Assembly (NCBI RefSeq): GCF_016862575.1
Contig: NZ_BONF01000009.1
Location: 62,001-126,000 of the forward strand
Direction of reading: 5' to 3'
From: Catellatospora bangladeshensis
GTDB taxonomy: Bacteria; Actinomycetota; Actinomycetes; Mycobacteriales; Micromonosporaceae
DNA length: 64,000 bases
Below the pieces are notes generated by a model. It did not search any database. It saw only the letters and a list, made by a program, of their open reading frames with translations, and was not told the DNA's origin. Positions 21,031 to 60,090 of this stretch are shown here, piece after piece. A program made the position numbers and the translations under genes. Each line of letters starts with the position of its first letter. Position 1 is the stretch's first letter.

Positions 21031-22110
21031 ATGCTCAAGACCGCGCGTGCTCTGTCGTGGTGGGCGGCGATCCCGCCGCTGACCGCGATCGTGCTCGTGC
21101 TCGCCTGGGGACGGCCGCTGTCCAACCCGGCCATCGTCCTGGTCGCCGCCGCGCTGATCGCAGCGGTCGTGGTCGCGGTGCACCACGCCGAGATCGTCGC
21201 GCACCGGGTCGGCGAGCCGTTCGGCACGCTGATCCTCGCGATCGCGGTCACCGTCATCGAGGTCGGCCTGATCATCATGCTGATGACCTCGGCCGGGTCG
21301 GGACCGTCACCGCTGGCCCGGGACACCGTGTTCGCCGCCTTCATGATCGTGTGCAACGGCGTGGTGGGACTATGTCTGCTCGTCGGCGCGCTGCGACATC
21401 GGGAGGTCGAGTTCCACGTCGAGGGCGTGACCGCCGCGCTGGCCACGCTGAGCGCGGTGGCGACCCTGGCCCTGGTGCTGCCGTCGTTCACCATCAGCGC
21501 CCCCGGCCCCACGTACTCCGGGCCGCAGCTCGCCTTCGCCGGCGTCGCCTCGCTCGTGCTGTACGCGTCGTTCGTGTTCGTGCAGACCGTCCGGCACCGC
21601 GACTACTTCCTGCCGGTGGACACCGGCGAGGACCACCACGCCGACCCGCCCACCCGCAAGGCGGCGGTGCTCAGCCTCGTCCTGCTGCTGGTCTGCCTGG
21701 TCGTCGTGGTGGGCCTGGCCAAGATCGAGGCTCCGGCGATCGAGAAGGCCGTGGTGGCCGTGGGCGCCCCGCACGCCGTGGTCGGTGTCGCGATCGCGTT
21801 GCTGGTGCTGCTGCCGGAGACGGCCGCGGCGGTGCGGGCGGCCTCCCGCAACCGGGTGCAGACCAGCTTCAACCTGGCCCTGGGCTCGGCGCTGGCCAGC
21901 ATCGGCCTGACCATCCCGTCGCTCGCGGTCGCCTCGATCTGGCTGCCGAACACGCTGATCCTCGGGCTCAGCCCGAAGGACATGGTGCTGCTGGCGATCA
22001 CCCTGATCGTCACCGTGCTGACCGTCGCGCCCGGCCGGGCCACCCTGATGCAGGGCATGGTGCACCTGACCCTGTTCGGCGTCTTCCTCTTCCTCTCCTT
22101 CGTGCCCTGA
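21031..22110 (+). CDS. chaA: calcium/proton antiporter
   Basis: 359 residues, eleven or so membrane helices, CaCA superfamily. The two alpha-repeats are clear: GEPFGTLILAIAVTVIEVGL in the first half and LLPETAAAVRAASRNRVQTS followed by NLALGSALASIGL in the second, each with the conserved acidic residue. It exports Ca2+ (or Na+/K+) in exchange for protons. TAGCCT ends 6 nt before the ATG, so likely leaderless. No partner gene; the next small membrane gene is 61 nt downstream and could be co-transcribed, though it has its own ribosome site. Confidence 0.92.
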   Translation: MLKTARALSWWAAIPPLTAIVLVLAWGRPLSNPAIVLVAAALIAAVVVAVHHAEIVAHRVGEPFGTLILAIAVTVIEVGLIIMLMTSAGSGPSPLARDTVFAAFMIVCNGVVGLCLLVGALRHREVEFHVEGVTAALATLSAVATLALVLPSFTISAPGPTYSGPQLAFAGVASLVLYASFVFVQTVRHRDYFLPVDTGEDHHADPPTRKAAVLSLVLLLVCLVVVVGLAKIEAPAIEKAVVAVGAPHAVVGVAIALLVLLPETAAAVRAASRNRVQTSFNLALGSALASIGLTIPSLAVASIWLPNTLILGLSPKDMVLLAITLIVTVLTVAPGRATLMQGMVHLTLFGVFLFLSFVP

Positions 22111-22171
22111 CCGGGGCGGCGGACCCGGCGCGGGTGGCCTACGCTGCGCGCAGTCTGCTGAAGGAGAACCC

Positions 22172-22423
22172 GTGCGCCACCCCGCCGACACCGAGCACTA
22201 CGGAAACCGTGCGCTGAGCTACGGGATGGTCGGCTTCCTGCTGGTCGCCGCAGTTTCGTACGTCACCCGCGACGGCGACCTCACCGTGCCCCTGTACGTG
22301 CTGGGCGGCTACCTGATGGCTGTCGGCCTGGTCTACGGGGCGGTGCAGGCGGTGGCCTCGGTGCAGCGCGACCACGAGGACTGGCGCCGCCGCCTCGACC
22401 GCGCGACCCGCGAGGAGGGCTGA
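22172..22423 (+). CDS. small membrane protein, unknown
   Basis: 83 residues with two hydrophobic helices (MVGFLLVAAVSYV and LYVLGGYLMAVGLVYGAVQA) and a charged C-terminus (DHEDWRRRLDRATREEG). GTG start preceded by AAGGAGAA, and a TACGCT hexamer about 25 nt upstream. No family recognised. It ends just before a bidirectional terminator. Confidence 0.72.
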   Translation: MRHPADTEHYGNRALSYGMVGFLLVAAVSYVTRDGDLTVPLYVLGGYLMAVGLVYGAVQAVASVQRDHEDWRRRLDRATREEG

Positions 22424-22434
22424 GACATCGGGTG

Positions 22435-22478
22435 CACGGCGGCTCCCGGGTCGTGGCCACAACCCAGGAGCCGCCGTG
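22435..22478. terminator. bidirectional terminator hairpin
   Basis: Arms 22435-22446 and 22467-22478 (CACGGCGGCTCC / GGAGCCGCCGTG) pair perfectly, with an inner GGGT/ACCC stem after a single mismatch and a 10-nt loop. It lies exactly between the stops of two convergent genes. Confidence 0.8.
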
Positions 22479-23360
22479 TCATTCGGGATCGCCCTCTGCC
22501 GGGCCGTCGTCGTCGATCGCCGTCGCCGTCGCGCCGCCGACGCGGCTGACCAGGCCGAGCTCGGCGGCGCGCACACCGGCCTGGAAGCGGGAGGTCGCGC
22601 TCACGTCGCGCATCATGTCCGCCACGTGCCGCCGGTAGGTGCGCACGGACATGCCGAGGCGGCGCGCGGCCACCTCGTCCTTCGCGCCCGCGCCGAGGTA
22701 GGTCAGGACCGACTGCGCCGTCTCCTCGCGCAGCTTGTCGCTGAGCCGGACGATCTCCGCCAGGGGAGTGCCCGCGCCCCAGCTCACCTCGAAGACGCTG
22801 CGCAGGAAGTGCACCAGCGGCTGGGCGGACAGCAGCACCGTCTGCGCGGCGGCGTGGTCCTCGGCGGTGTTGCGCAGGATCGCCTCACGGCCGTCGGTGA
22901 TGACGAGGTTCTGGCCCTGGAAGTCCCAGGAACGGAAGCCCGGGTGCTCGTACAGCGCCCGGTCGGCCGCGACCAGCGGGCCGGTGGCGGCTGCGGGCAC
23001 CAGCGCCCTGATCCGCACGCCCCGCCGGTCGGCGTGCCGGAGCAGGTCGACGGTGTGGTTGCGGCGGTCGTCGGCGATGTCCCCGGCCGACAGCACGCAC
23101 AGCACCTCCCGCCGCGCCCGCATGATCGCCTCGCCCGCGACCGCGTGGAACACCGCGTCGTCACCGGGCAGGTGGCGGATGTGGTGGCCGTTGCCGCGCC
23201 GCCGCGACATGGCCCGCTCGATCAGCTCCTGGGCCTGCGACAGGACCGTCTCCACCTCGTCGTGGTGGTCCGGCGCCGGCTCGAACGGTCGTGACCGGGC
23301 GTGACCTGCCCGGGGCTCGTGGAACCCCCGGTGCGGCAGGCCGCTCTGTGATGCCTTCAT
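22479..23360 (-). CDS. LuxR-type helix-turn-helix regulator with TrmB/PLD-like sensor
   Basis: 293 residues. N-terminal helix region (VETVLSQAQELIERAM), a middle alpha/beta domain (HIRHLPGDDAVFHAVAGEAI ... VRIRALVPAAAT) like the phospholipase-D-type effector domain of TrmB regulators, and a C-terminal GerE helix-turn-helix (YLGAGAKDEVAARRLGMS, then VRTYRRHVADMM). Such orphan LuxR proteins often sit beside natural-product genes. The ATG was chosen from GGGGGGAG upstream. It is divergent from the carrier-protein operon across 549 bp, so it is the best candidate pathway regulator. Confidence 0.85.
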   Translation of the reverse strand: MKASQSGLPHRGFHEPRAGHARSRPFEPAPDHHDEVETVLSQAQELIERAMSRRRGNGHHIRHLPGDDAVFHAVAGEAIMRARREVLCVLSAGDIADDRRNHTVDLLRHADRRGVRIRALVPAAATGPLVAADRALYEHPGFRSWDFQGQNLVITDGREAILRNTAEDHAAAQTVLLSAQPLVHFLRSVFEVSWGAGTPLAEIVRLSDKLREETAQSVLTYLGAGAKDEVAARRLGMSVRTYRRHVADMMRDVSATSRFQAGVRAAELGLVSRVGGATATAIDDDGPAEGDPE

Positions 23361-23909
23361 CAAAACTCCCCCCGAGTTTCGGAATGCTGGCAGGAACATG
23401 TCGCGCTCGGATGTTTCGCGGTGCGCCCCTCCACGCCCGTATCCATCCACAAACTACGATCAGTATGTTTCCGGCCGATGTTCGCGCCCGCGTGCTCGTG
23501 GCGGACGAACACCTGGACCCGGCCTCGGCCTGGTGTATGTCCATCCAAGATCGCGAGCGTAGGCCAATGTGGACGGTCCTGCAATCACGGAAAGGTGTCA
23601 GCAGGAAGAACGATGGCGCGGATTAGGGTCAGACCGGCGCATTACCGACGCTGACCTGCGCATTGAGGGCAGCCTTCCCACCGGCTGAGAACAATGTCAC
23701 CTGCGCCGATGTCGATCTCCGTCGCATCGGCGACAGGCGTCCGTACTTCGGGACGGCGGCTTGGCAGCTTGTGGTCACACCCCGCCCGCCTCCGGCACCT
23801 GCGCTGGCAGGTTGCTGCGGTGACGTTCCGTTCGGCTTGCACGCTGCGGTTTCATGGACCCCGCCCGAGGACGGGCAAGCAGGCTGGGGCGACCGCGAGG
23901 GGATGGCGC
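23361..23909. other. 549-bp non-coding divergent region
   Basis: No credible gene is seen here; short frames lack ribosome sites and conserved motifs. The part 23400-23760 has clearly lower GC than its surroundings, as expected for promoters of both divergent units. Small dyads such as TGTCCAT ... ATGTGGAC (about 23539-23576) and GCGCATTACCGACGC are visible but unassigned. Regulatory sites for the LuxR-type protein should lie here. Confidence 0.6.
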
Positions 23910-24866
23910 ATGTCCAACGTGTACGTGAGCGACTTCGTGTACGCGCTCGGCTCCCGCAAGACACACGTCACCGAGTCCGAGGCGGCCGGGCGGCTGCTGT
24001 CGTCGGCCGAGGACCTGGAGTCGGCCGGATTCGCGTGGCACCACCTGTGCGAGCCCGGAGAGTCGGCGTACGGCCTCGCCGAGGCGGTCACCGCGCAGCT
24101 CGCCGAGAGCGGCCGGCTGACCGGGATCGACGCGATCGTCTACGCCACCTGCCTGCCGCTCAACGGCAACATCGGCGACCCGGGCGAGTTCGCCCGCACC
24201 CGCGACGTGAAGCACCTGATGGACTTCCCGGCCAGCCGCCTGCAGGCCGACTTCGGCCTCACCGACGCGGTGGTGCTGGGCCTGAACCAGCAGGCGTGCA
24301 CGGCGATGCCCGGCTCGGTGCGGCTGGCCGGCGCGCTGCTGGCCGCCGAGCCGAGCTGGCGCAAGGTGCTGTGCGTGACCGCCGACCGCTTCCCGGACGG
24401 CGCGATCTACGAGCAGGCGTACAACCTGATCTCCGACGGCGGCGCGGCCTGCCTGGTCGGCCGCGAGCCGGAGGGCTTCCGGCTGGTGAGCGCGCACCAG
24501 ATCACCAACGGCGCGCTGGGCCAGGCCACCGACGACGAGACCGTCGGCTCCTACTTCTCCTTCACCCACCGGCTGTTCCGGGAGTCGCTGGACCGGGCCG
24601 GGCTCACCGTCGCCGACGTGGACTGGGTGGTCACCCAGAACACCAACGACAAGGCATGGCAGATCCTCGCCCGGCTGCTCGGCGTGCCGCTCGACCGGGT
24701 GTGGTTCCCGTCCATGCCCGACGCGGGGCACATCATCTCGGCGGACAACATCGTCAACCTGGCGCAGCTGATCGCGTCCGGCCAGCTCCGGCCCGGCCAG
24801 CGGGTGGTGCTGATGATGGCGGGCTTCGGCCTGAACTGGCAGAGCCTGATCCTGGAGGCCGTGTGA
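23910..24866 (+). CDS. KASIII-like (ketoacyl-ACP synthase III family) condensing/acyltransferase protein
   Basis: 318 residues, thiolase fold. The nucleophile Cys is kept (C130 in LNQQACTAMPG), but the other two KASIII residues differ: the HQAN motif is TQNTN (Q243 in place of His) and the GN(T/S)SAA motif reads GHIISAD (H274 in place of Asn). It is therefore unlikely to be an ordinary decarboxylating FabH and may transfer an acyl group to an amine or hydroxyl, as CerJ-like relatives do. ATG preceded by GAGGGG. First gene of the operon; its stop overlaps the next GTG (GTGA). Confidence 0.85.
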   Translation: MSNVYVSDFVYALGSRKTHVTESEAAGRLLSSAEDLESAGFAWHHLCEPGESAYGLAEAVTAQLAESGRLTGIDAIVYATCLPLNGNIGDPGEFARTRDVKHLMDFPASRLQADFGLTDAVVLGLNQQACTAMPGSVRLAGALLAAEPSWRKVLCVTADRFPDGAIYEQAYNLISDGGAACLVGREPEGFRLVSAHQITNGALGQATDDETVGSYFSFTHRLFRESLDRAGLTVADVDWVVTQNTNDKAWQILARLLGVPLDRVWFPSMPDAGHIISADNIVNLAQLIASGQLRPGQRVVLMMAGFGLNWQSLILEAV

Positions 24867-25765
24867 CCGTCACCGCCGCCGCCCGGCTGCGCGATGCCAT
24901 CGCGTCGCTGAAGGAGACCTCGGACCGGCTGAGCCGGCTGTCGCAGCGCTCGTACCAGAACCCGTACACCGCCGTGGACTGGCCGGAGTCGGTGGACCCG
25001 GAGACCGAGTGGTTCAGCTCGCCGGAGCTGCTCAGCCTGTACGGCACGCCGGTCTGGGACACCCTGGACGAGCGGGCGCGCTGCCGGCTGGCGTTCCACG
25101 AGGCGGCCAACTTCTACAGCCTCAACATCCACGGCGAGAAGGGCCTCATGCAGGGGCTGGCCGCCCGGCTCTACCGGCGCGACCTCGCCGACGTGGCCGA
25201 CTACCTGCACCACTTCCTCGACGAGGAGAACAAGCACAGCATCTTCTTCGGCGGCTTCTGCACCCGCTACGCCCGGGTCTACCCGACCAAGCAGGTGTCG
25301 TTCGAGGTGAAGCGGCCGCGCGACGTGGAGGACTTCCTGTTCTTCGCCCGGGTCATGGTCTTCGAGGAGATCGTCGACCGCTACAACTGGTGGCAGGGCC
25401 GCGACGAGCGCCTGCACCCGGTCGCCCGCTTCATCAACAACAACCACCACTTCGAGGAGGCCCGGCACCTGATCTTCGGGCGCCGCCTCGTCGAGGCGAT
25501 GTGGCAGGCCTGCGCCCCCGCCTGGGACGACGAGCTGATCGAGGACGTGCGCGAGCACCTCACCCAGTTCCTCGTCACCAGCTGGCGCGAGTACTACAAC
25601 CCCGCCGTGTACGCCGACGCCGGGCTGGCCGACCCGTACGACCTGGCCGAGCAGGCGTGGGCCGCGCCCGCGCAGCGCGAGCACCGCAGGCGCACCTCCA
25701 CCAAGCTGCTCGGCTACCTCACCTCCACCGGAATCCTGGTCAAGGAGCCTGTCGATGCATTCTGA
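24863..25765 (+). CDS. AurF-like diiron N-oxygenase
   Basis: 300 residues. A helical diiron fold with ligand pattern of the AurF/CmlI family: a first Glu (E80 or E92), E122-x2-H125 in DEENKHS, E168 in MVFEEIVDRYNWW, and H195-x3-E199-x2-H202 in NNNHHFEEARH. The spacing between the last four positions equals that of AurF. The family oxidises an amine to hydroxylamine, nitroso or nitro. With the amino acid:carrier ligase two genes on, a carrier-bound amino group is the likely substrate (inference). GTG start overlaps the upstream stop; the ACP gene start lies 11 nt inside its 3' end. Confidence 0.88.
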   Translation: MTVTAAARLRDAIASLKETSDRLSRLSQRSYQNPYTAVDWPESVDPETEWFSSPELLSLYGTPVWDTLDERARCRLAFHEAANFYSLNIHGEKGLMQGLAARLYRRDLADVADYLHHFLDEENKHSIFFGGFCTRYARVYPTKQVSFEVKRPRDVEDFLFFARVMVFEEIVDRYNWWQGRDERLHPVARFINNNHHFEEARHLIFGRRLVEAMWQACAPAWDDELIEDVREHLTQFLVTSWREYYNPAVYADAGLADPYDLAEQAWAAPAQREHRRRTSTKLLGYLTSTGILVKEPVDAF

Positions 25766-26015
25766 GCCCGAGATCCGCCAGGCGCTGCGGGAGTGGATCC
25801 TCGGCAAGGCCCGGGACCTGGACCCGGCCGCGCTGACCGACACCACTCCGCTGTTCGAGCGCCGCTACCTGCGCTCGCTGCACGTGCCGGAGCTGCTGCT
25901 GCTCCTGGAGCGGTTGCGCGGCGAGCCGATCGACGTGGAGGACCTGGGCGCGGGCGACTTCCGCGACATCGACACGCTGCTGGCGAAGTTCGGCCCGGCG
26001 CGGGCGGCGTCGTGA
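25755..26015 (+). CDS. acyl/aminoacyl carrier protein (first)
   Basis: 86 residues, helical, with the general carrier-protein layout: helix 1 (EIRQALREWILGKARDLD), acidic loop (LTDTTPLF), modified-Ser site and helix 2 (RSLHVPELLLLLERLRG), then VEDLGAGDFRDIDTLLAKF. The usual DSL is replaced by RSL (S41), so recognition by the phosphopantetheinyl transferase may differ. Directly followed by and overlapping the SerRS-like ligase gene (GTGA), which marks it as that enzyme's likely carrier. ATG with GGAGCC ahead. Confidence 0.8.
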   Translation: MHSEPEIRQALREWILGKARDLDPAALTDTTPLFERRYLRSLHVPELLLLLERLRGEPIDVEDLGAGDFRDIDTLLAKFGPARAAS

Positions 26016-26923
26016 CCGTCACCGTGTCCGCGGGGCTGTCCTCGATCGGGCTGCGCTGGTACGAGACCGGGCAGGCCGGGCTCAGCGGCCCCCTGCTGCG
26101 GCTGGCCGAGGAGTGCGACCGCGCGTTCCGTACCCTCGCCTCGGTCTGGGAGGCGGCCGACGAGCGCCACCCGTCCGCGCTGCCCGCCGAGCGGCTGCAG
26201 CGGCTGGACTACCTGCACTCGTTTCCGCACCAGGCGACGTTCCCGGCCCGGCTGGACCCGGCCCACCTGGACGAGTTCCTGGCCGGGGAGCCGGTCACCG
26301 AGTCCGGTGCGGTGGACCTCACCCCGCTGGCCCCGGTGACCTCGGTGCTCACCCCGGCCGCCTGCTACCACCTCTACCACGCGCACGAGGGCAGCAGCTT
26401 CTCCGCGCCGGTGTACCTGACCACCCGCAACACCTGCTACCGCCACGAGGAGCGCTACGAGCCGCTGCGCCGCCAGTGGGCGTTCAGCATGCGCGAGATC
26501 GTGTGCCTGGGCACCCACGACGAGACCGAGGCGTTCCTGGCGCAGGCCCGCGCGGTGGTGGACGAGTTCCTCGGGCTGCTGGACCTGCCGGTGGCGTGGC
26601 CGACGGCGACCGACCCGTTCTTCCGGCCGCGCGACAACCCGCAGTACCTGATGCAGCGGCTGCAGCCGAGCAAGCACGAGGCCACCTACGGCGGCGACCT
26701 GGCCATCGCGTCGGTGAACCTGCACCACGACCACTTCGGCGCGGCGTTCGGGCTGCGCCGGGCCGGGCGGCCGGTGAACACCGCCTGCCTGGCCTTCGGA
26801 ATCGAGCGCTGGCTGTGGGCGATCACGGACCGGCACGGGCTCGACCCGTCCGACTGGCCGTCGCCCGCCCAGGCGGCGGTGACCGTGGCCACCCGCACGG
26901 TGGCCCGCGAGGTGCAGTTGTGA
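26012..26923 (+). CDS. amino acid:carrier protein ligase (seryl-tRNA synthetase-like)
   Basis: 303 residues, class II aminoacyl-tRNA synthetase core without the N-terminal tRNA-binding coiled coil of SerRS. Motif 2 is TCYRHEERYEPLRRQWAF, motif 3 is FGIERWLWAI. The three zinc ligands of the studied Bradyrhizobium enzyme (Cys, Glu, Cys) are matched by C118 (TPAACYH), E162 (MREIVCLG) and C259 (NTACLAFG). Family members activate glycine or alanine with ATP and load it on a carrier protein's phosphopantetheine. The overlapping carrier gene upstream is the likely acceptor. Which amino acid is used cannot be read off. Confidence 0.88.
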   Translation: MTVTVSAGLSSIGLRWYETGQAGLSGPLLRLAEECDRAFRTLASVWEAADERHPSALPAERLQRLDYLHSFPHQATFPARLDPAHLDEFLAGEPVTESGAVDLTPLAPVTSVLTPAACYHLYHAHEGSSFSAPVYLTTRNTCYRHEERYEPLRRQWAFSMREIVCLGTHDETEAFLAQARAVVDEFLGLLDLPVAWPTATDPFFRPRDNPQYLMQRLQPSKHEATYGGDLAIASVNLHHDHFGAAFGLRRAGRPVNTACLAFGIERWLWAITDRHGLDPSDWPSPAQAAVTVATRTVAREVQL

Positions 26924-26939
26924 GCGAGGGGGCACACGC

Positions 26940-28046
26940 ATGGGCATCCTGATCACCGGAGCCGACGGCTACCTGGGCCGCCGTGCCGTGTCGGCGCTGC
27001 TGGAGACGACCGGCGACGAGTTCGTGCTCGCGGTGCGCGCCGCCGACGCCGCCGAGCTGGCCGCCAAGCGCGACCGGCTCGACGCCGAGCTGGGCGCGGC
27101 CGGACACGGCCGGGTCACCGTCGTGGGGGCGGACCTGACCCGCGACGACGCGCTCGCCGACGTCGATCCGCGCCGGGTGACCGCGATCGTGCACGCCGCG
27201 GCCGTCACCCGGTTCAGCGTCGACCGGGAGACCGCGCAGCGGGTCAACGTGGACGGCACCGTACGGCTGGCCCGGTTCGCCCGGCGCTGCCCGGACCTGC
27301 GCCGCTTCACGCTGCTGTCCACGCTGTACACCGCGGGCCGGCACACCGGCGACGTGCCCGAGCGCCGCCACGAGGACGCCGGGTTCGTCAACTTCTACGA
27401 GTGGTCCAAGTGGCGGGCCGAGCAGCACCTGTTCGACAGCGGGCTGCCGCTGTCGGTGCTGCGGCTGCCGACCGTCATCGCCGAGGACGACGGCGGCACG
27501 GTGGTGCAGTACAACGCCTTCCACAACACGCTCAAGCTGTTCTACTACGGCCTGCTGTCGCTGATGCCGGGCGAGCCGTCGACCCCGCTGGCACTGGGCA
27601 CCGCGGCGTTCACCAGCGCGGCCGTCGCGCACCTGGTCCGGCCCGAGGTCCCGGCCGGGATCTACCACGTCACCCCGGACCCGGCGCAGACGCTGACCCT
27701 GGGGCAGCTCATCGACCTGACGTTCGACGTGTACGAGCGCGACGACAACTTCCGGCGGCGCAACCTCATGCGCCCGATCTACTGCGACCGGCAGAGCTTC
27801 GACGACATGGTGGACATCGCCCGGCGGCTCAAGGGCGGCCCGATCGAGCAGGCGGTGGCCTCGGTCGCCCCGTTCGGCACGCAGCTCTACCTGCACAAGA
27901 CGTTCCGCAACGAGGCGCTGCGCGCGGCCTGGCCGGGCTACGCGGCGCCCGATCCGCTGGCGCTGGCCGACGCCGTCTGCGACCACCTGGTCGCGTCGCG
28001 GTGGGGCAGGCAGCCGGTGACCCGTCAGCTGGAGGGCGCGCTGTGA
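26940..28046 (+). CDS. NAD(P)-dependent thioester reductase-like SDR
   Basis: 368 residues of the extended SDR / male-sterility reductase group (NAD_binding_4). The nucleotide loop is TGADGYLG (residues 6-13) and the catalytic pair is Y153-x3-K157 (FYEWSKW). A C-terminal substrate part follows. Such stand-alone R-domain-like proteins reduce carrier-bound thioesters to aldehydes or alcohols, releasing product. An epimerase role cannot be excluded. ATG after GAGGGGG, 16 nt from the previous stop; its own stop overlaps the next GTG. Confidence 0.82.
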   Translation: MGILITGADGYLGRRAVSALLETTGDEFVLAVRAADAAELAAKRDRLDAELGAAGHGRVTVVGADLTRDDALADVDPRRVTAIVHAAAVTRFSVDRETAQRVNVDGTVRLARFARRCPDLRRFTLLSTLYTAGRHTGDVPERRHEDAGFVNFYEWSKWRAEQHLFDSGLPLSVLRLPTVIAEDDGGTVVQYNAFHNTLKLFYYGLLSLMPGEPSTPLALGTAAFTSAAVAHLVRPEVPAGIYHVTPDPAQTLTLGQLIDLTFDVYERDDNFRRRNLMRPIYCDRQSFDDMVDIARRLKGGPIEQAVASVAPFGTQLYLHKTFRNEALRAAWPGYAAPDPLALADAVCDHLVASRWGRQPVTRQLEGAL

Positions 28047-28633
28047 ACAAGCAGGCCGTGAGCGAGAACGAGCGCTGGCTGCTCAGCTACTACCGGGCCT
28101 CGGAGATCAACGGGGCGCTGTTCTTCGGGCGGGTGGCGCGGACCGTACGCGGGCCGCTGCTGGTCGACGTCACGCACCACTTCACCGACGAGGCCAACCA
28201 CGCCAACTACTGGACGAAGTGCCTGGACGACATGGACCTGACGCCGGTCCCTCAGAACCGCGCCTACCAGGACCAGTATCTGGAGGCGGTCGGCATGCCG
28301 GCCAACGTCATGGAGGTCATGGCGATCACGCAGGTCTTCGAGAAGCGGGTGATCGGCCAGTACGGCCGCCACCAGCGCTACGCGGGCACGCATCCGCTGG
28401 CGAAGGCGACCATCCAGAAGATCATGCTCGACGAGCGCTGGCACGTGAAGTACGTCCGCGACGCCCTCGCCGACCTGTCCGGCAAGTACGGGGCCGAGCT
28501 GATCGACACGACGCTGGCCCGGTTCACCGCCGCCGACGACGAGGTCTACGCCAAGACGCTGGAGGAGTACGGCCAGCGCCTGGAGTTCCTCGGCGAGACC
28601 ACCGAGCACTACCACGGAACCGAAACGGAGTAA
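28043..28633 (+). CDS. ferritin-like diiron protein
   Basis: 196 residues, four-helix bundle with a full diiron set: E21 (RASEINGALFF), E50-x2-H53 (DEANHANYW), E100 (QVFEKRVIGQYG), and E131-x2-H134 (LDERWHVKY). The family includes small oxidases and N-oxygenating enzymes; VlmB of valanimycin biosynthesis is a possible functional analogue, by inference. GTG start overlapping the reductase stop. Being the second diiron protein of the operon, it could catalyse a later oxidation or an N-N/N-O bond step. Confidence 0.8.
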   Translation: MNKQAVSENERWLLSYYRASEINGALFFGRVARTVRGPLLVDVTHHFTDEANHANYWTKCLDDMDLTPVPQNRAYQDQYLEAVGMPANVMEVMAITQVFEKRVIGQYGRHQRYAGTHPLAKATIQKIMLDERWHVKYVRDALADLSGKYGAELIDTTLARFTAADDEVYAKTLEEYGQRLEFLGETTEHYHGTETE

Positions 28634-28636
28634 TCG

Positions 28637-28906
28637 ATGCAGGCCACCTTCGCGGCCGTCGCCGAGCGGATCAGCGTCACCTCGGGTGTCGCGGTCGACC
28701 GGCTGCGCCCCGAGACGACGCTGAAGGAACTCGCCCTGGACAGCTTCCTGCTGGTCGAGATGGCCGTCGACCTGCAGGAGGAGTTCGACGCCATCTTCAC
28801 CCAGGAGGACCTGCACCGGGTGAGCACGGTCGGGGACCTGGTCGAGCTGCTGAACACCTCGGGGGCCGCCGACGTGCGGGCCCGCGCGGCGGCCGACCAT
28901 GGCTGA
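28637..28906 (+). CDS. acyl carrier protein (second)
   Basis: 89 residues with the standard carrier fold and phosphopantetheine Ser36 in LALDSFLLVEMAVDLQEEF, i.e. DSF in place of DSL, then VSTVGDLVELL. It differs clearly from the first carrier (RSL), suggesting each is loaded by a different enzyme: this one most likely by the fatty acyl-AMP ligase of the same operon. ATG starts 3 nt after the diiron gene stop; the 3' end overlaps the MMPL gene by 8 nt. Confidence 0.88.
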   Translation: MQATFAAVAERISVTSGVAVDRLRPETTLKELALDSFLLVEMAVDLQEEFDAIFTQEDLHRVSTVGDLVELLNTSGAADVRARAAADHG

Positions 28907-31193
28907 GCGTTTCGCGCACGCGATCCGCCGCTATCGCTGGCTGCTGCTGGCCGCCTGGCTCGTGGTGCTGACCGGGGCCGGGGTCGCCGCGCTGCCGCTG
29001 GCCGGCAAGCTCAGCGGCGGCGGCTGGTACGTCTCCGGCTCCGACTCCCAGCTCGCCGCCCAGGCGCTGCGCTCGGGCTTCACCGGCCGGGGCGAGAGCA
29101 ACCTGGTCGTGCTCGTCCACGACGAGCGGCACACCGTCGCCGACCCGCAGTTCGCCGAGCGCGCCGGGCGGGCGGTCAACGCCGTGCTGGACGACGACCG
29201 GCTGGACGCGGCCAGCTCGTACGGCTGGATGAGCCTCACCGGCGACGGGCGCGACGCGTTCGTCGGCGACGACCGGCGCACCGTGGTCACCCTGGTCGGC
29301 CTCGACGTCGACGACGGCACCGCGCGCCGGGTGCTGCCCGACGTGCAGGGCGAGCTGGCCGACCGGTTCGCCGCCGAGGGCCTGCGGGTGTCGCTGGTCA
29401 GCGCCGCGTCCCTGTTCGGCGAGATCAACGCGCTGAGCCAGAGCAGCCTGACCGAGGCGGAGCTGATCGCGTTCCCGCTGATCCTGGTCATCCTGCTGTG
29501 GCTGTACCGCAGCGTGGTCGCCACCGCGGTGTCGTTCGTGGTCAGCATGACCGCGCTCGGCCTCACCTTCGGCCTGCTGTCGCTGCTGGCCAGCCGGTTC
29601 GAGCTGTCCATCTTCGTGCAGAACGCCGCCACGATGATCGGCCTCGGCGTCAGCGTCGACTACTCGCTGATAATCATCTCCCGGTACGCCGAGGAGCTGC
29701 GCCGTGGCCGGGACCGCTTCGAGGCGCTGGTCACCACGCTGCGCACCAGCGGCGAGACGGTGCTGTTCTCCGGCCTGATCGTGGCCCTGTCCACGTCCGC
29801 GCTGTTCCTGGTGCCGCTCAACGTGATCGGCTCGATCGCGCTCGGCATCGTGCTGGTGGTGGCGTTCGCGGTGCTCAGCAGCGTGCTCGTGCTGCCCGTG
29901 GTGCTCTACCTGCTCGGCGACCGGGTGCTCAAGGGCGCGGTCAAGCTGCCCGGCGGCCGGGCCCGCTCGCTGGAGGTCTCCGAGAACCCCTGGTACCGGC
30001 TGGCCATGCGGATCATGCGCCGCCCGGTGCTGTGGCTGCTGCCCCCGGCGATCGCGCTCATCGCGCTGGCCGTGCCCGGCCTGGGCATGAGCACGTTCAC
30101 GCCGGACGCCCGGGTGGTGCCGACGTCCTCGCCGGTCCGTTACGGCTACGACCTGATGCGCGAGCAGTTCGGCACCGGCGCCGCCTCGCCGATGCAGGTC
30201 GTGGTGACCGTCGCGGGCGAGCTGAACGACGCGCACGGCGCGGCGCTGACCGGCCTGGCCGAGCGGCTGCGCGGCCTGCCGCACGTCGAGCGGGTCGACT
30301 CGCCGCTGGACGTGCTGCGCGCGGTCGACCCGGCCCGCCCGGTCGCGGCGCTGGCCGGGCTGGACCGGATGCCGGCCGACGCCCGGCAGACCGTCGAGCA
30401 CTTCGTCTCCGCCGACCGCGACACCGTCGTGCTGGAGGTCATCCCGGACGGCGACGCGGCCAGCCCGGGGGTCATCGCCCTCTACGACCAGGTGCGGGCC
30501 GAGGTGGCGAAGCTGCCGTCGGACAGCTTGCGCGGCGTCGTCGGCGGGGAGACCGCCGAGGGCGTCGACGCGAACCAGGCGATCAGCGACAAGCTGCCGT
30601 ACGTCCTGGGCATCATGCTCCTGATCATCTACGTGCTGCTGCTGGTGACGTTCCGGTCGCTGCTGCTGCCGCTGAAGGCGATCGTGCTCAACCTGCTGTC
30701 GGTCGGTGCGACGTTCGGCCTGCTGGCGATCGTGTTCCAGCACGGCTTCGGCGTCGAGCTGCTCGGCACCGTCAGCCACGGGTACGTGCAGAACTTCGTG
30801 CCGATCCTGCTGCTGGCCATCCTGTTCGGGCTGAGCACCGACTACGAGGTGTTCCTGCTCAACCGGGTCCGGGAGGAGTGGCAGCGCACCGGCGACGACA
30901 CCGTCAGCGTCGCCACCGGCCTGGCCCGCACCGCGCCGCTGATCTCCGGCGCGGCGGTGCTGATGCTCGCCGTGTTCGGCGCGTTCACCCTCACCGGCAT
31001 CAACCCGATCCAGCAGCTCGGCTTCGGCCTCGCCGTCGCCGTAGCGCTGGACGCCACCCTGATCCGCCTGGTCATCGTGCCCGCCTCGATGCGCCTGATG
31101 GGCCGGTGGAACTGGTGGCTGCCGGGTCGCCGCCCCACCGCCACCCCTGTTTCGTCACCCGCCCTGCCCGTACGAGAGGACGCCCTGCGTTGA
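28899..31193 (+). CDS. MMPL/RND family exporter
   Basis: 764 residues, RND layout: helix 1, an extracytoplasmic domain (about 35-180), helices 2-6, helix 7, a second outer domain, helices 8-12. The proton-relay regions are GVSVDYSLIIISRYAEEL and GLSTDYEVFLLNRVREEW, the MmpL pattern in each half. MmpL proteins move lipids or lipidated products out of actinomycete cells, which fits a fatty acyl product of this operon. Length is in the usual range. Confidence 0.9.
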   Translation: MAERFAHAIRRYRWLLLAAWLVVLTGAGVAALPLAGKLSGGGWYVSGSDSQLAAQALRSGFTGRGESNLVVLVHDERHTVADPQFAERAGRAVNAVLDDDRLDAASSYGWMSLTGDGRDAFVGDDRRTVVTLVGLDVDDGTARRVLPDVQGELADRFAAEGLRVSLVSAASLFGEINALSQSSLTEAELIAFPLILVILLWLYRSVVATAVSFVVSMTALGLTFGLLSLLASRFELSIFVQNAATMIGLGVSVDYSLIIISRYAEELRRGRDRFEALVTTLRTSGETVLFSGLIVALSTSALFLVPLNVIGSIALGIVLVVAFAVLSSVLVLPVVLYLLGDRVLKGAVKLPGGRARSLEVSENPWYRLAMRIMRRPVLWLLPPAIALIALAVPGLGMSTFTPDARVVPTSSPVRYGYDLMREQFGTGAASPMQVVVTVAGELNDAHGAALTGLAERLRGLPHVERVDSPLDVLRAVDPARPVAALAGLDRMPADARQTVEHFVSADRDTVVLEVIPDGDAASPGVIALYDQVRAEVAKLPSDSLRGVVGGETAEGVDANQAISDKLPYVLGIMLLIIYVLLLVTFRSLLLPLKAIVLNLLSVGATFGLLAIVFQHGFGVELLGTVSHGYVQNFVPILLLAILFGLSTDYEVFLLNRVREEWQRTGDDTVSVATGLARTAPLISGAAVLMLAVFGAFTLTGINPIQQLGFGLAVAVALDATLIRLVIVPASMRLMGRWNWWLPGRRPTATPVSSPALPVREDALR

Positions 31194-31768
31194 ACGAGCC
31201 CGTCCTGGTCCTGCTGACCCTGAACTTCGCGTTCATCGGCATCCTGCCGCGGATCTTCTTCCGGTCCGACGGTTCGCTCAACGCCCGCTGGTGGGCGACG
31301 GCGAGCCCGTTCTTCGTGGCCTGCCTGTTCCTGGTGGGGGCGTACTTCGCCGACTGGGCCGCGCTGGCGCCCGCGTCGTGGCTGCGGTGGCTCGCGGTGG
31401 CGGCGGTGCCGTTCAGCGTCGCGTCGGTGGCGCTGATCTGGATGACGCTCGGCACGCACCGCATCCCGATCTCGCTGTGGCACCAGGAGAATGACGCGCC
31501 GCGCAGCATCGTCACCTACGGCGCGTACCGCTGGATCCGGCACCCGTTCTACGCGTCGTTCATCTTCGCGCTGTTCGCCGCGCTGCTCTACCACCCGCAC
31601 TGGGTCACCGGCGCCACGTTCCTCTACGGCGTGATCGCGCTGAACCTGACGGCCGCCCGCGAGGAGCGCCGCCTGGCGGTCTCCGAGTTCGGCGCGGAGT
31701 ACCAGGAGTACATGGGCCGCACCGGGCGGTTCACGCCGAGGCTGGGCGCACCCGTCAGGGTCGCCTGA
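31190..31768 (+). CDS. ICMT/PEMT-like membrane methyltransferase
   Basis: 192 residues, about five membrane helices, with the isoprenylcysteine methyltransferase-type C-terminal motif: GAYRWIRHPFYASF, then EERRLAVSEFGAEYQEYMGR. This family binds SAM at the membrane and methylates carboxylates or lipid amines. Start is TTG overlapping the MMPL TGA (TTGA). In this operon it may methylate a lipophilic intermediate. Followed by a strong hairpin. Confidence 0.82.
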   Translation: MNEPVLVLLTLNFAFIGILPRIFFRSDGSLNARWWATASPFFVACLFLVGAYFADWAALAPASWLRWLAVAAVPFSVASVALIWMTLGTHRIPISLWHQENDAPRSIVTYGAYRWIRHPFYASFIFALFAALLYHPHWVTGATFLYGVIALNLTAAREERRLAVSEFGAEYQEYMGRTGRFTPRLGAPVRVA

Positions 31769-31771
31769 CAC

Positions 31772-31807
31772 GCGGCTCCAGGGATGCGGGGGTGTCCCTG
31801 GAGCCGC
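31772..31807 (+). terminator. hairpin between the methyltransferase and FAAL genes
   Basis: 13-bp perfect stem (31772-31784 with 31795-31807, GCGGCTCCAGGGA and complement), 10-nt loop, followed by CTTCT. It lies 4 nt after the methyltransferase stop and 44 nt before the FAAL start. It would end or thin out operon transcripts before the FAAL gene. Confidence 0.75.
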
Positions 31808-31850
31808 CTTCTCCGCAGCAGACGACACCGGCCAGACCAGGGGGGACGAC

Positions 31851-33521
31851 GTGCCGGACATCCACACCGGATGGCTAACGCAGCCGCATCCGGACCGCGG
31901 GGTGCACCTCGCCGACGAGACCGGCGGCTGGACCTACGCCTCCTACCCGGAGCTGGCCACCGCCGCCCGGCGCATGGCGGCGCAGCTCGTCGCGGCCGGG
32001 GTGCGCCCCGGTGACGCGGTGTGTGTGCTGATGCCCACCGGCTATCCGGTGCTCACCGTGATCTACGGGGTGTGGGCGGCCGGCGCGGCGATCTGCCCCG
32101 TCGTGCCGCCCAGCTTCCAGCGCGAGGACGAGTACGTCGCGCACGTCGCCGCGATCCTGGAGCAGGCGCAGCCGAGCCTCGTGGTGACCAGCGCCGGGCT
32201 GGAGCCGGTCGCGGTGCGGGCGATGGCCGCCGCCGGGCGGTCCGACAAGCCGCTGCTGCCGTGCGCGGACGCGACCGACGAGCTGACGCCGCAGCCGCGC
32301 GGCGAGCTGGCGCTGCTCCAGTTCACCTCCGGGTCCACCGGCCGCCCGCGCGGCGTGCGGGTGACCTGGGACAACCTGGCGGCCAACTTCCGGATCATCG
32401 CGCGGATGAACGCGTGGCGCGACGGCGACGCGATGGCGTCGTGGCTGCCGCTCTACCACGACATGGGGCTGATCGGGCTGTTCCTGTTCCCGATCTGCCA
32501 CCAGGGCTCGCTGTGGCTGATGCGCCCGGACCAGTTCATCCGCGACCCGCTGCGCTGGCTGGCCTGCTTCGCGCCGGGCAAGGCCACGGCGTCGGCGTCG
32601 CCGTCGTTCGCGTTCGCGTACGCCACCCGCCGCGTCAAGCCGGAACGGCTGGCGGGCCTGGACCTCACCGAATGGAAGTCGGTCTGCATCGGGGCGGAGA
32701 CCACCGACGTCGCGGCGCTGGCCGGGTTCGCCCGGTTCGCCGCCGGGACCGGGTTCCGGCCGCAGACCTTCCAGCCGTCGTACGGCCTGGCCGAGTGCAC
32801 CCTGGCCGTCACCTCGCCGCCGCCCGGCGAGCTGTCCGAGGTGGTCCGGCCCGACTGGGCGAAGCTGCGTTTCGGCGAGCCGGTGCAGCTCGACGCCAAG
32901 GGACGGCTGTCCGAGGCCGACACCCCGCCCGGCTCCGGCTGGATGATCGGCCACGGGCTGCCCGACCCGGCGGACGGGCTGACCGTGCGCCTGGTCGACC
33001 ACGACGGCCGCGAGTTGCCCGACGGCTGCCTCGGCGAGATCGCGGTCCGGGGCAGCTCCGTCGCCGCCGGATACCACGCGGGCCGGGAGGGTGTCTCGTC
33101 CCGCTTCGTCGACGGCGAGCTGCGCACCGGCGACGCGGGTTTCCTCCACGAGGGCCAGCTGTACGTGCTGGGCCGGATGGGGGAGAGCGTCAAGCTGCGC
33201 GGGCGCAACGTGTACGTCGAGGACCTCGACGTCAAGGTCGCCGCCGCGGCCGGGGTGGAACGCGGGAGCGTCGTCGTGGTGGGCGCGCTCCGTGAGGGCC
33301 GCCCGGGGCTGGTCGTCTTCGTCGAGGCGAGCCCCGGCCCGTGGACCGAGGACGTGGCCGCCCAGCTGCGCGGCGAGTTCGGCCCCGACCCGTTCCTGAC
33401 CGTGGTCGCCGGCCGCCGCGGCGTGATCCACCGTACGTCCAGCGGCAAACCGCGGCGGCGCCACATGTGGGAGCTGCTCCAGTCCGGCGCGATGCCACGC
33501 GCCACCGTCAGCCACCACTGA
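31851..33521 (+). CDS. fatty acyl-AMP ligase (FAAL)
   Basis: 556 residues, ANL superfamily. ATP loop LLQFTSGSTGRPRGV (TSGSTG at 159-164), the FAAL-type motif SWLPLYHDMGLIG (197-209), YGLAE, and the C-terminal Lys in TSSGKPRRR. FAALs activate a fatty acid as acyl-AMP and pass it to a carrier protein rather than CoA. The second carrier protein of the operon is the likely acceptor. GTG start with GGGGGGA upstream. It may have partly separate transcription, because a strong hairpin precedes it. Confidence 0.92.
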   Translation: MPDIHTGWLTQPHPDRGVHLADETGGWTYASYPELATAARRMAAQLVAAGVRPGDAVCVLMPTGYPVLTVIYGVWAAGAAICPVVPPSFQREDEYVAHVAAILEQAQPSLVVTSAGLEPVAVRAMAAAGRSDKPLLPCADATDELTPQPRGELALLQFTSGSTGRPRGVRVTWDNLAANFRIIARMNAWRDGDAMASWLPLYHDMGLIGLFLFPICHQGSLWLMRPDQFIRDPLRWLACFAPGKATASASPSFAFAYATRRVKPERLAGLDLTEWKSVCIGAETTDVAALAGFARFAAGTGFRPQTFQPSYGLAECTLAVTSPPPGELSEVVRPDWAKLRFGEPVQLDAKGRLSEADTPPGSGWMIGHGLPDPADGLTVRLVDHDGRELPDGCLGEIAVRGSSVAAGYHAGREGVSSRFVDGELRTGDAGFLHEGQLYVLGRMGESVKLRGRNVYVEDLDVKVAAAAGVERGSVVVVGALREGRPGLVVFVEASPGPWTEDVAAQLRGEFGPDPFLTVVAGRRGVIHRTSSGKPRRRHMWELLQSGAMPRATVSHH

Positions 33522-33548
33522 AGACGGCCAGGGAGCGGGCCGTCGATC

Positions 33549-33613
33549 GACCGCGGGACCGGGCAGCCCGCGGTCGGCCGGGCCGCCGCGGGCGGGCACC
33601 CGCGGCGGCCCGG
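33549..33613. terminator. tandem terminator hairpins between convergent genes
   Basis: Two hairpins: 33549-33557/33567-33575 (GACCGCGGG, 9 bp, 9-nt loop) and 33578-33592/33599-33613 (CCGGGCCGCCGCGGG, 15 bp, 6-nt loop, then TTCT). They close the FAAL gene from the left and the aminotransferase gene from the right. Confidence 0.85.
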
Positions 33614-33615
33614 TT

Positions 33616-34800
33616 CTACTGCTTGAGCCGGGCCACGGCGTCGGCGATCACCTCGGGGCGCTTGCAGAACGCGAACCGCACCAGGTGCCGCCCCGCGTCC
33701 ACGTCGTCGTAGAACACCTGCGCCGGGATCGCCACCACGCCGCTGCGCTCGGGCAGCCCGAGGCAGAACTCGATGCCGTCGCTGCCGCCCAGCGGCCTGA
33801 TGTCGGTGGTGATGAAGTACGTCCCCTCGGCGGCGAGCACCCCGAACCCGGCCTCGGCCAGCCCCGCCCGGAGCTGGTCACGCCGCTCCTGAAGGCCCGC
33901 GGTGAAACCGGTGAAGTAGTCGTCGGGCAGGCCCAGCGCCACCGCGACCGCGGGCTGGAACGGCCCGGCGTTGACGAAGGTGAGGAACTGCTTGACCCGC
34001 AGCACCGCCGACACCAGCGCGGCCGGTCCGCTGGCCCAGCCCACCTTCCAGCCCGTGCAGGAGAACGTCTTGCCCGCCGACGAGATGCGCAGCGTGCGCT
34101 CGCGCATGCCGGGCAGCGACGCCAGCGGGAGGTGCGGCGAGCCGGCGTCGTCGAAGACCAGGTGCTCGTAGACCTCGTCGGTCACCGCGTACGCCCCGAA
34201 CTCCTGGCACAGCTGCGCGATGAGGGTCAGCTCCTCGCGGGTGAACACCTTGCCGGTCGGGTTGTGCGGGGTGTTGAGCAGCACCAGCCTGGTGCGCGGC
34301 CCGAACGCGGCGCGCAGCTCGGCCGGGTCGAACCCGTAGCGCCCGCCGTCGCCCGGCCGCAGCGTCACCGGCCGCCGCACCGCCCCCGCCAGCGCGATGC
34401 TCGCCGCGTACGAGTCGTAGTACGGCTCGAAGCAGACCACCTCGTCGCCCGCCTCGCACAGGCCCAGGATCGCGGCCGCGATCGCCTCGGTCGCCCCCGC
34501 GGTGACCACGACCTCACCGTCCGGGTCGTACTCCAGTCCCCAGAACCGGCGCTGGTGCGCGGCGACCGCCTGGCGCAGCACCGGCAGCCCCGGACCGGGC
34601 GGGTACTGGTTGTACCCCTCGCGCAGCGCCCTCGCGGCCGCGTCCAGCATCTCCGCCGGGCCGTCGGTGTCAGGGAAGCCCTGCCCGAGGTTCACCGCGC
34701 CCGTCTTGAGCGCGAGCGCCGACATCGTCGCGAAGATCGTCGTCCCGAACGGGCGCATCCGCTCCACCAGCGGATCGCCCCCGAAGTTCCCAGCCGTCAT
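33616..34800 (-). CDS. PLP-dependent aminotransferase, class I/II (DapC / kynurenine-methionine aminotransferase type)
   Basis: 394 residues, fold type I. The PLP Lys lies in SSAGKTFSCTGWKVGW; the cofactor Asp is in VTDEVYEHLVF; NTPHNPTGKVF and the terminal Arg region VRFAFCKR are also present. The GQGFPDTDGP start and the K-site sequence place it with YbdL/kynurenine aminotransferases and actinobacterial DapC. Substrate is not certain. ATG chosen 8 residues before the conserved start. Not evidently linked to the neighbouring carrier-protein operon, from which it is separated by terminators. Confidence 0.88.
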   Translation of the reverse strand: MTAGNFGGDPLVERMRPFGTTIFATMSALALKTGAVNLGQGFPDTDGPAEMLDAAARALREGYNQYPPGPGLPVLRQAVAAHQRRFWGLEYDPDGEVVVTAGATEAIAAAILGLCEAGDEVVCFEPYYDSYAASIALAGAVRRPVTLRPGDGGRYGFDPAELRAAFGPRTRLVLLNTPHNPTGKVFTREELTLIAQLCQEFGAYAVTDEVYEHLVFDDAGSPHLPLASLPGMRERTLRISSAGKTFSCTGWKVGWASGPAALVSAVLRVKQFLTFVNAGPFQPAVAVALGLPDDYFTGFTAGLQERRDQLRAGLAEAGFGVLAAEGTYFITTDIRPLGGSDGIEFCLGLPERSGVVAIPAQVFYDDVDAGRHLVRFAFCKRPEVIADAVARLKQ

Positions 34801-59221: not shown

Positions 59222-60082
59222 ATGACGGACGACCCGCTCATGCCGCACTACGCACGGGTCGACCAGAGCCCGCCGCAGATGCAGGCCCGGCTGGTCGCGT
59301 ATCTGGACCGCGCCGCGGTGCAGCCGGCCATCGCCGAGGCGCGGGCCCTGGCCGCCGAGGCGATGCATGTCAAACCCGGTCACCGCGTGCTCGACGGCGG
59401 CTGCGGGCTGGGGGAGGAGGCCTGCTCGCTGGCGCTGCTGGTCGGGCCCGAGGGGCGGGTCGAGGGCGTGGACAACTCGCGCAGCATGCTGGCGCTGGCG
59501 GCGCACCGCCACGCGCGCTGGCGCGAGACCCATCCGGACGCGGGCGACGTGCGCTTCACGGCCGGCGACCTGGCCCGGCTGGACTATCCCGCGGGCACGT
59601 TCGACGCGGTGCGGTGCGAGCGCACGCTGCAGCACCTGCTCGACGCCGAGCGCGTGATCGCCGAGCTGGTGCGGGTGACGCGCCCGCAGGGCCGGATCTG
59701 CCTGGTGGACACGGACTGGGAGTCGCTGGTCTTCGACGGGCTGCCCGCCGAGGTGATGACGCCGATGCTGTGGCGGTTGCGGCACCACAGCGTGATGAGC
59801 AACCCGGCGATGGGCCGTACGCTGCGCAGCCGCCTGCGCCGGGCGGGGGTGCGGGAGCTGGAGTGCCATCCGCTGACGGTGTGTTTCACCGAGCCGGCGC
59901 AGGCGCAGCACGTGGTGCCGTACTTCGAGCGGGACCTGCTGCTGCACATCGTGGGGGAGGAGGACGGTGACGCGACGTCGACGGTGGACCGGTGGCTGGA
60001 CGCGGTGGCCGACGCCGCGGACCGGGAGGACTTCCTGATGGCGCTGACGCTGTGGGTGGTCGCCGGCACGGTGCCCGCCTGA
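59222..60082 (+). CDS. class I SAM-dependent methyltransferase
   Basis: 286 residues. SAM-binding motif I VLDGGCGLGEEACSLAL, motif II EGVDNSRSML, the FDAVRCERTLQHL motif, and RVTRPQGRICLVD after it. Resembles UbiE/sterol-type small-molecule methyltransferases. ATG after GAGG. Substrate unknown. The 218-bp gap before it has no gene; it contains a short TTGATCATGGAC repeat at 59169-59180. Confidence 0.85.
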   Translation: MTDDPLMPHYARVDQSPPQMQARLVAYLDRAAVQPAIAEARALAAEAMHVKPGHRVLDGGCGLGEEACSLALLVGPEGRVEGVDNSRSMLALAAHRHARWRETHPDAGDVRFTAGDLARLDYPAGTFDAVRCERTLQHLLDAERVIAELVRVTRPQGRICLVDTDWESLVFDGLPAEVMTPMLWRLRHHSVMSNPAMGRTLRSRLRRAGVRELECHPLTVCFTEPAQAQHVVPYFERDLLLHIVGEEDGDATSTVDRWLDAVADAADREDFLMALTLWVVAGTVPA

Positions 60083-60090
60083 CGGGCGGG

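Follow-up and report, generated by a model that had tools for sequence, protein, structure and literature searches.

A ten-gene operon of Catellatospora bangladeshensis, which occupies positions 23910-33521 of the window (the whole 64,000-nucleotide stretch of DNA analysed), is predicted from its sequence to make an exported, N-oxidised lipid-like metabolite in which an N-oxidised glycyl-carrier, probably a nitronate, is joined to an acyl group supplied by a fatty acyl-AMP ligase (FAAL) and an acyl carrier protein (ACP), a reading to which we give about an even chance. What the sequence shows directly is the gene set, the protein families, the catalytic and metal-site residues, the conserved association of the genes and their joint presence at a site where relatives have a short stretch of DNA. 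A search of the open-licence literature turned up no described pathway with this gene set, consistent with the original prediction, which knew of none with the exact set.

Organisation and distribution of the ten genes

All ten genes (g1 to g10) run on the plus strand and six of their nine junctions, calculated from coordinates, are overlaps of 4-11 nt, the other three being gaps of 3, 16 and 82 nt, much as was first described (ten same-strand genes, mostly overlapping). The family assignments originally given to the ten are upheld by Pfam and NCBIfam profiles, solved relatives and conserved residues, and the claim that the assembly line works without an NRPS agrees with the absence of a Pfam match to one among the ten genes. 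None of the ten encodes a PPTase; several relatives do.

The operon lies within a stretch of extra DNA (22108-33618, no strand assigned) whose two flanking genes are near neighbours, 82-2101 bp apart, in all nine other members of the genus searched, but 11.5 kb apart here; it therefore looks to have been acquired as one unit. The extra DNA also holds a divergent putative regulator, named by eye, on the minus strand (22479-23450, with the start uncertain between 23255 and 23450), the shorter form of which has no Pfam or NCBIfam match. The gene set recurs across phyla, in actinomycetes and Candidatus Obscuribacterales: all ten genes are matched in Streptomyces sp. PH10-H1 and nine of ten at a Candidatus Obscuribacterales locus (L060).

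The ligase-carrier-oxygenase module and the other genes

A ligase, a first carrier protein and an AurF-like oxygenase form one module. The ligase, g4 (26012-26923), is a SerRS-like amino acid-carrier protein ligase, as evidenced by its match to Bll0957 (E 3.3e-24) together with scores against the class II aaRS core (Pfam, 1.1e-5) and the NCBIfam family 'amino acid--[acyl-carrier-protein] ligase' (6.4e-37) that lie below the respective cut-offs. Its residues C118, E162 and C259, which correspond to the zinc-ligand positions of Bll0957, are invariant in 54 of 54 sequences, as are R144/E146 of motif 2 and R266 of motif 3, so that homology, presumed zinc ligands and class II motifs all point to a Bll0957-type ligase. 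Members of this ligase family accept alanine too. The adjoining g3 (25755-26015), the first carrier protein (CP1), has no Pfam match, but a profile built from 17 of its relatives identifies the carrier PltL as a match (E 7.8e-8); all 36 relatives with a detected first-carrier match, to which this count is confined, keep Ser41.

The third component, g2 (24863-25765), is an AurF/CmlI-type diiron N-oxygenase (Pfam AurF, 3.1e-38) whose candidate metal ligands E80, E122, H125, E168, H195, E199 and H202 are invariant in 53 of 53 sequences, leaving out that of locus L138, whose matched frame contains a stop codon. In diiron N-oxygenases an additional His precedes the Glu of the last ExxH by four residues (PMC12154687), and H195 is assigned to this role by its spacing, with the neighbouring H196 likewise invariant. 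The best structural matches of the predicted g2 model are CmlI and AurF, both weak (TM about 0.5-0.6), and three of the five AurF models are of low confidence.

Around this module lie the other genes of the operon. The KASIII-like acyltransferase g1 (23910-24866; Pfam C-terminal domain, E 2.5e-17, and alignment) retains the catalytic Cys130, but His and Asn are replaced by Gln243 and His274 in 28 of 28 sequences (the L062 protein, a fragment of 27 aa, being excluded), so that the Cys-His-Asn triad of decarboxylating KASIII enzymes reads Cys-Gln-His. In alignment, g1 has this altered active site (GH....D, without the canonical His) in common with ChlB3, an acyl shuttle. A second carrier, the ACP g7 (28637-28906; PP-binding, Pfam 5.2e-10), bears the D35-S36 site, and the FAAL g10 (31851-33521; AMP-binding, Pfam 4.6e-49) is nearer to FAALs than to acyl-CoA ligases by its top solved relatives (3pbk, E 1.2e-58), with NCBIfam scores below cut-offs; a relative at L059 with a stop codon inside the matched frame was omitted from residue counts. 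The stand-alone thioester-reductase-like SDR g5 (26940-28046; Male sterility/thioester reductase, Pfam 3.9e-26) has TGxxGYxG and Y153xxxK157 invariant in 29 of 29. Export and methylation are represented by an MMPL-family exporter, g8 (28899-31193; Pfam MMPL, 1.6e-85), and an ICMT-type integral membrane methyltransferase, g9 (31190-31768, assuming a TTG start; Pfam ICMT, 4.3e-6).

The weakest of the original family claims, that g6 (28043-28633) is a second diiron protein, gains from residue conservation: profile matches to rubrerythrin (0.0025) and AurF (0.051) are below cut-offs, but E21, E50xxH53, E100 and E131xxH134, the pattern of a ferritin-like diiron site, are invariant in 18 of 18 relatives. 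The best Foldseek matches of g6 are aldehyde-deformylating oxygenases (E about 1e-3, query TM 0.57-0.69 for the top eight), none of which is among the sequence matches of its profile, and such a role, with g5 supplying the substrate, is disfavoured by the presence of g5 without g6 in 11 loci.

Three architectures around the ligase

We compared 62 ligase loci, namely the window, one locus found through g6 (L161) and 60 others that are mostly best-scoring ligase matches; the loci are related, so that counts are not independent, the Fisher p calculated from them is inflated and is set aside, and fractions do not represent population frequencies. Of the 62, 57 have AurF close to the ligase, and these divide without overlap into 32 with a close KASIII (at least 45% identity) and a thioester reductase, 15 with a nitronate monooxygenase (NMO) and ten with neither, nine of which carry an LCM-type methyltransferase. 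Close KASIII and thioester reductase mark an identical set of loci, and NMO occurs in none of these 32, the window included, versus 15 of the 25 other AurF loci. The window has neither the NMO nor the class I methyltransferase of the other two branches; it has the ICMT-type g9, and the MT2-type methyltransferase of L123 is found in none of the 32 KASIII-type loci. Its AurF also falls in a separate clade of a tree that includes 29 of these 32. Near NMO-type loci there are weak KASIII-like matches (24-26%, L111 and L140) and one LCM match (38%, L128).

The genes g1-g5 are present in 11 other loci that have no match to FAAL, ACP, g6, methyltransferase or pump, a distribution that the first reading could not have seen. 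The N-oxidising core therefore probably does not depend on the fatty-acid arm, and the retention of g5 in these loci makes CP1 the likely site of its action. Seventeen loci have the ICMT, always together with g6, ACP and FAAL, and 11 have DUF3419 at the threshold of this comparison, always with a GNAT protein; that the two never co-occur suggests alternative ways of capping a single oxygen. At L053, g6 and ACP are accompanied by a weaker DUF3419 match (37%), while L106, on a contig that continues beyond the locus, has neither cap. The DUF3419 and GNAT proteins of L042 have no NCBIfam match, and the pump g8 is matched in just nine of the 17 ICMT-type loci.

Proposed pathway, alternatives and known systems

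We propose that g4 would activate a small amino acid, most likely glycine, and load it on g3, where g2 would oxidise the nitrogen to the nitronate (aci-nitroacetyl) level; oxidation could also end at a hydroxylamine or oxime. In parallel, a fatty acid would be loaded on g7 by g10 and its chain probably oxidised by g6, after which g1 would join the two carrier-bound pieces, g5 would free the product from g3 reductively, g9 would O-methylate it and g8 would export it. Glycine, the nitronate level, the pieces joined by g1, what g5, g6 and g9 act on, and the product structure are our inferences. The pathway first suggested is supported in part, namely in its two loading enzymes and carriers, N-oxygenase-type diiron enzyme, reductase, methyltransferase and exporter; the nearest known chemistry, on the other hand, is no longer fragin/valdiazen or azoxy biosynthesis but the oxidation of glycine to a nitronate on a carrier, since NMO adjoins relatives of the AurF-carrier-ligase module.

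A lipothrenin-like hydroxamate, an iron chelator for which g2 would N-hydroxylate an N-acyl amino acid amide formed on CP1 (via g1 or another step) and g5 would release an aldehyde or alcohol, is rather unlikely. The lit cluster of Streptomyces aureus LU18118 (PMC10616846) likewise has a KASIII, FAAL, ACP and AurF homologue, the last needed for N-hydroxylation, and no NRPS in its gene table; two of its proteins without annotation, LitK (85 aa) and LitL (311 aa), are sized like g3 (86 aa) and g4 (303 aa), and deletion of LitL abolished lipothrenin production. The operon offers a testable role for these two unexplained proteins. Yet 11 loci have the core but no FAAL or ACP match, module relatives adjoin NMO in 15, and the ten genes have no Pfam match to ThiF or DUF4873, which accompany AurF in the lit cluster along with a GMC oxidoreductase, an MFS protein and threonine as substrate; conversely, the lit gene table lists neither the thioester reductase nor the ICMT of the operon (PMC10616846). 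The lit cluster was not found among the SerRS-like loci, of which L114 and L115, lacking AurF, carry other genes. The hydroxamate models of trichostatin and actinonin/matlystatin were rejected, as the AsnB-like partner paired there with AurF homologues (PMC5719088) is missing among the ten genes.

In a quite unlikely form of the nitronate pathway, the g3-bound nitronate would be a carbon nucleophile, g1 would acylate its alpha carbon with the acyl group from the FAAL and without decarboxylation, which would account for the loss of His and Asn in g1, and g5 would reduce the thioester to a primary alcohol, yielding a 2-nitro-3-oxo-1-alkanol. The product would then be a nitro counterpart of 3-ketosphinganine, the sphingoid precursor, made without PLP, and nitroacetyl-carrier a new extender unit, with a methyl cap (ICMT) here and an aminocarboxypropyl cap (DUF3419, BtaA-like) in seven-gene relatives.

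It is distinctly unlikely that g1 instead shuttles the N-oxidised glycyl group on to a fatty alcohol made by g5 from acyl-g7, esterifying it before g9 methylates the nitronate oxygen, as the active site that it has in common with the acyl shuttle ChlB3 would allow. The persistence of g5 without ACP and FAAL matches better fits reduction of a CP1-bound chain. An N-N product (azoxy, diazeniumdiolate or hydrazine type) is very improbable: fragin/valdiazen-type pathways use an NRPS and a cupin, neither of which is among the ten genes, and with an aminotransferase also unmatched (Pfam) the fragin/valdiazen and azoxy models were rejected. A second amine source is not obvious either, although some AurF-family enzymes make azoxy groups (PMC12154687). 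The nitronate O-methyltransferase that the glycyl-shuttle route would need has a precedent in enteromycin carboxamide (PMC9967187).

We give equally little credence to a modified acyl lipid whose ordinary aminoacyl head group would come from the ligase and for which g2 would act on carbon, as a hydroxylase or CylC-like halogenase. CylC-type halogenases are distantly related to AurF (PMC8406957), and in the nocuolin (noc) cluster FAALs and ACPs are accompanied by relatives of ColD, a putative halogenase (PMC5333925); however, all seven AurF-type ligand positions of g2 are invariant, the extra His included, its model is closest, if weakly, to CmlI and AurF (TM about 0.5-0.6), and NMO adjoins module relatives. 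As described in the available text of PMC5333925, the noc cluster has FAALs, ACPs, distant AurF-like proteins, an acyl-ACP reductase and a methyltransferase in common with the operon but is an NRPS/PKS cluster with benzene-degradation-like genes, in which a SerRS-like ligase is not named, and a nocuolin-type identity was rejected.

Returning to the nitronate pathway, aaRS-like loading and AurF-type oxidation on a stand-alone carrier would constitute a portable module that feeds three or more downstream fates, of which one is unexplored within the open-licence literature. In this third fate, fatty acids would be joined to N-oxidised glycine with no NRPS involved, and a class of exported N-oxygenated lipids that has not been seen before is predicted; the small separate enzymes would allow new C-N-O chemistry to be studied in vitro, along with a KASIII that lacks the decarboxylation residues.

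Among known systems, the Bll0957-type ligase and carrier correspond to g4, homologous with the same zinc-ligand and motif positions, and its likewise adjoining carrier, but comprise the loading step alone, with other gene neighbours reported (PMC2922099). The nearest chemistry is that of glycine-derived nitronate pathways, among them enteromycin carboxamide, akazaoxime and nitronate denitrification, in which a diiron oxygenase oxidises carrier-bound glycine (He and Ryan 2021, as described in PMC9967187, PMC11035981 and PMC12154687), as we suggest for the module. For akazaoxime the same sources propose glycine loading on an NRPS, in contrast to the stand-alone g3. The reported fates of glycine-derived nitronates, O-methylation and NMO denitrification (PMC11035981 and PMC9967187), agree by gene content with the methyltransferase and NMO loci among module relatives. 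The window lacks an NMO and adds to these pathways a KASIII-like protein, a thioester reductase, FAAL and ACP, a second diiron protein and an ICMT; this third architecture looks like an undescribed third branch of glycine-to-nitronate chemistry.

Operon content and genomic setting

A run of ten plus-strand genes (g1–g10) spans positions 23910 to 33521, six of its nine junctions overlapping by 4–11 nt and the other three leaving gaps of 3, 16 and 82 nt. Pfam and NCBIfam identify a KASIII-like protein (g1), AurF (g2), a SerRS-like ligase (g4), a thioester-reductase-like SDR (g5), an ACP (g7), MMPL (g8), ICMT (g9) and a FAAL-type AMP ligase (g10), and give weak matches only for the second diiron protein, g6. 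A Pfam search returned no match for g3, the first carrier; a profile built from 17 sequences matched it to the carrier PltL (E 7.8e-8) with the Ser in register. No described pathway with this gene set was found in the open-licence literature.

The operon lies between an antiporter-like gene (21031–22110) and an aminotransferase gene (33616–34767). These flanks are 11.5 kb apart in the window and 13.8 kb apart in genome G051, where all ten genes are also present, at 96–98% protein identity; in all nine other genus members searched, the distance is 82, 102, 103, 135, 558, 1159, 1779, 2094 or 2101 bp. The extra DNA also holds a putative regulator (22479–23450) divergent from the operon, found at full length only in the window's genome and G051 among eleven genus genomes compared, the shorter form of which matched nothing in Pfam or NCBIfam. 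Gain of the operon as a unit in the window's lineage is a simpler reading than parallel loss in its relatives. Downstream lies a thermolysin-type peptidase gene with two P-domain matches (35018–37576), and at 60001–62000 GC skew reaches 0.24, against absolute values of at most 0.09 elsewhere in the window at the same step.

Settings of the ligase–carrier–AurF module

AurF is encoded close to the ligase in 57 of 62 loci surveyed (exceptions L056–L058, L114 and L115), these loci being related and mostly best-scoring, so that counts are not independent. A KASIII of at least 45% identity occurs in 32 of the 62 and the reductase in the identical 32, none of which has a nitronate monooxygenase (NMO). 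NMO is present in 15 loci, including Streptomyces sp. NBC_01431 (order diiron oxygenase, carrier, ligase, NMO) and Tistrella mobilis pTM2. Ten further AurF loci have neither NMO nor close KASIII; within 9 kb, nine encode an LCM-type methyltransferase and eight a second SAM methyltransferase, the tenth, L141, having ketosynthase genes and no LCM-type enzyme. The split is not perfectly clean, with weak KASIII-like matches (24–26%) near NMO-type L111 and L140 and an LCM match (38%) near NMO-type L128. In a tree of 53 AurF homologues, midpoint-rooted and with some long branches, the 29 KASIII-type rows are set apart by a branch supported at 100/100.

Passages in PMC11035981 and PMC9967187, citing He and Ryan 2021, describe two alternative fates of a glycine-derived nitronate: O-methylation on the way to enteromycin, and denitrification by NMO. 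Methyltransferase-type and NMO-type loci thus resemble these two fates in gene content, whereas the window's architecture corresponds to neither.

Other arrangements were also observed. In L141 (2004–10819), on a Streptomyces plasmid, AurF–carrier–ligase adjoins genes for a ketosynthase, a chain-length factor and an AMP-binding protein, which may represent a fourth fate for the module. L123 (4746–19445) combines the module with two SAM methyltransferases and, by eye, an apparent methionine/SAM recycling set. In L056 (7239–12631) ligase and carrier occur without AurF and have on their flanks two proteins that by eye are FAD oxidase-like, as well as two KASIII-like matches; this may be another kind of amino acid oxidation on a carrier.

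Seventeen of the 32 KASIII-type loci encode ICMT, all with g6, ACP and FAAL matches and nine with MMPL. Eleven others encode DUF3419 and GNAT proteins and show no g6, ACP, FAAL or ICMT match. This seven-gene set (KASIII–AurF–carrier–ligase–reductase–DUF3419–GNAT; L042:7769–13904, also L041 and L043–L051) occurs both within the window's genus (seven genomes) and in other genera (four genomes), and probably makes a small amino-acid-like metabolite. The eleven form one clade (100/99) nested among other KASIII-type rows of the AurF tree; the long version therefore looks older under the midpoint root. Four loci have neither ICMT nor DUF3419 at threshold: L062 and L109, which stop at contig ends, L106, and L053, with a weak, divergent DUF3419 match (37%). 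BtaA, a DUF3419 family member, adds a 3-amino-3-carboxypropyl group to a primary alcohol. As the methyl and aminocarboxypropyl transferases are mutually exclusive and sit beside a reductase, we suggest that they cap a hydroxyl or nitronate oxygen.

Active sites and a proposed pathway

Aligned with solved FabH-type enzymes, g1 retains the catalytic Cys (C130) and replaces His with Gln243 and Asn with His274, a pattern invariant in 28/28. ChlB3 in the same alignment likewise lacks the His and likewise has the GH....D segment. Because the catalytic His and Asn are replaced, as the His is in ChlB3, these residues argue for acyl transfer rather than malonyl-decarboxylating elongation; the acceptor would perhaps be a nucleophile that works without decarboxylation, for example the carbon of a nitronate.

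In structural comparison of the g2 model (mean pLDDT 79.4, with three of the five models poor), the eight top matches are CmlI and AurF (TM 0.5–0.6). Excerpts of PMC12154687 describe an extra His in diiron N-oxygenases, to which H195 of g2 corresponds by spacing, and list nitronate among their products. In g6, E21, E50xxH53, E100 and E131xxH134 are kept in 18/18 relatives, and its model (mean pLDDT 83.6) resembles ferritin-like diiron enzymes, the top matches being aldehyde-deformylating oxygenases at weak E-values of about 1e-3.

Of the following scheme, only the families of the enzymes, their active-site residues and the associations were observed. We posit that g4 would load a small amino acid onto g3, where g2 would then oxidise it; g10 would load a fatty acid onto g7 and g6 would oxidise the acyl chain; g1 would join the two parts, g5 release the product by reduction, g9 O-methylate it and g8 export it.

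Recurrence and likeness to lipothrenin

Ligase matches of at least 49% identity occur in 16/300 family genomes (window's own counted), and, within the family to which Streptomyces sp. PH10-H1 belongs, matches of at least 57% occur in 11/394 genomes (PH10-H1 counted). All ten genes are matched together in the window, L039, L059 (PH10-H1; FAAL match with an internal stop codon), L104 (pump match split in two pieces), L105, L107 and L120–L122. Nine, without MMPL, are matched in L040, L108 and L110, in L052 with a weaker FAAL match, and in the Obscuribacterales loci L060, L061 and L063 and L161 of the same class. Members of the g6 family were detected in 1/396 phylum-wide genomes, the window's own, and in 5/146 of the Obscuribacterales' class, four of the five known beforehand. 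A PPTase is encoded in the neighbourhoods of L052, L053, L060 and L110, and an RND permease gene lies close to the L060 cluster. L108 (3672–12597) and L110 each carry two g6-like ferritin genes; their KASIII, reductase and FAAL genes run divergently to the module.

Among known systems, the lipothrenin (lit) cluster, as presented in PMC10616846, contains a KASIII, FAAL, ACP and AurF homologue, together with the unannotated proteins LitK (85 aa) and LitL (311 aa), the latter required for production. LitK and LitL are close in size to g3 and g4, a lead towards their being possible counterparts.
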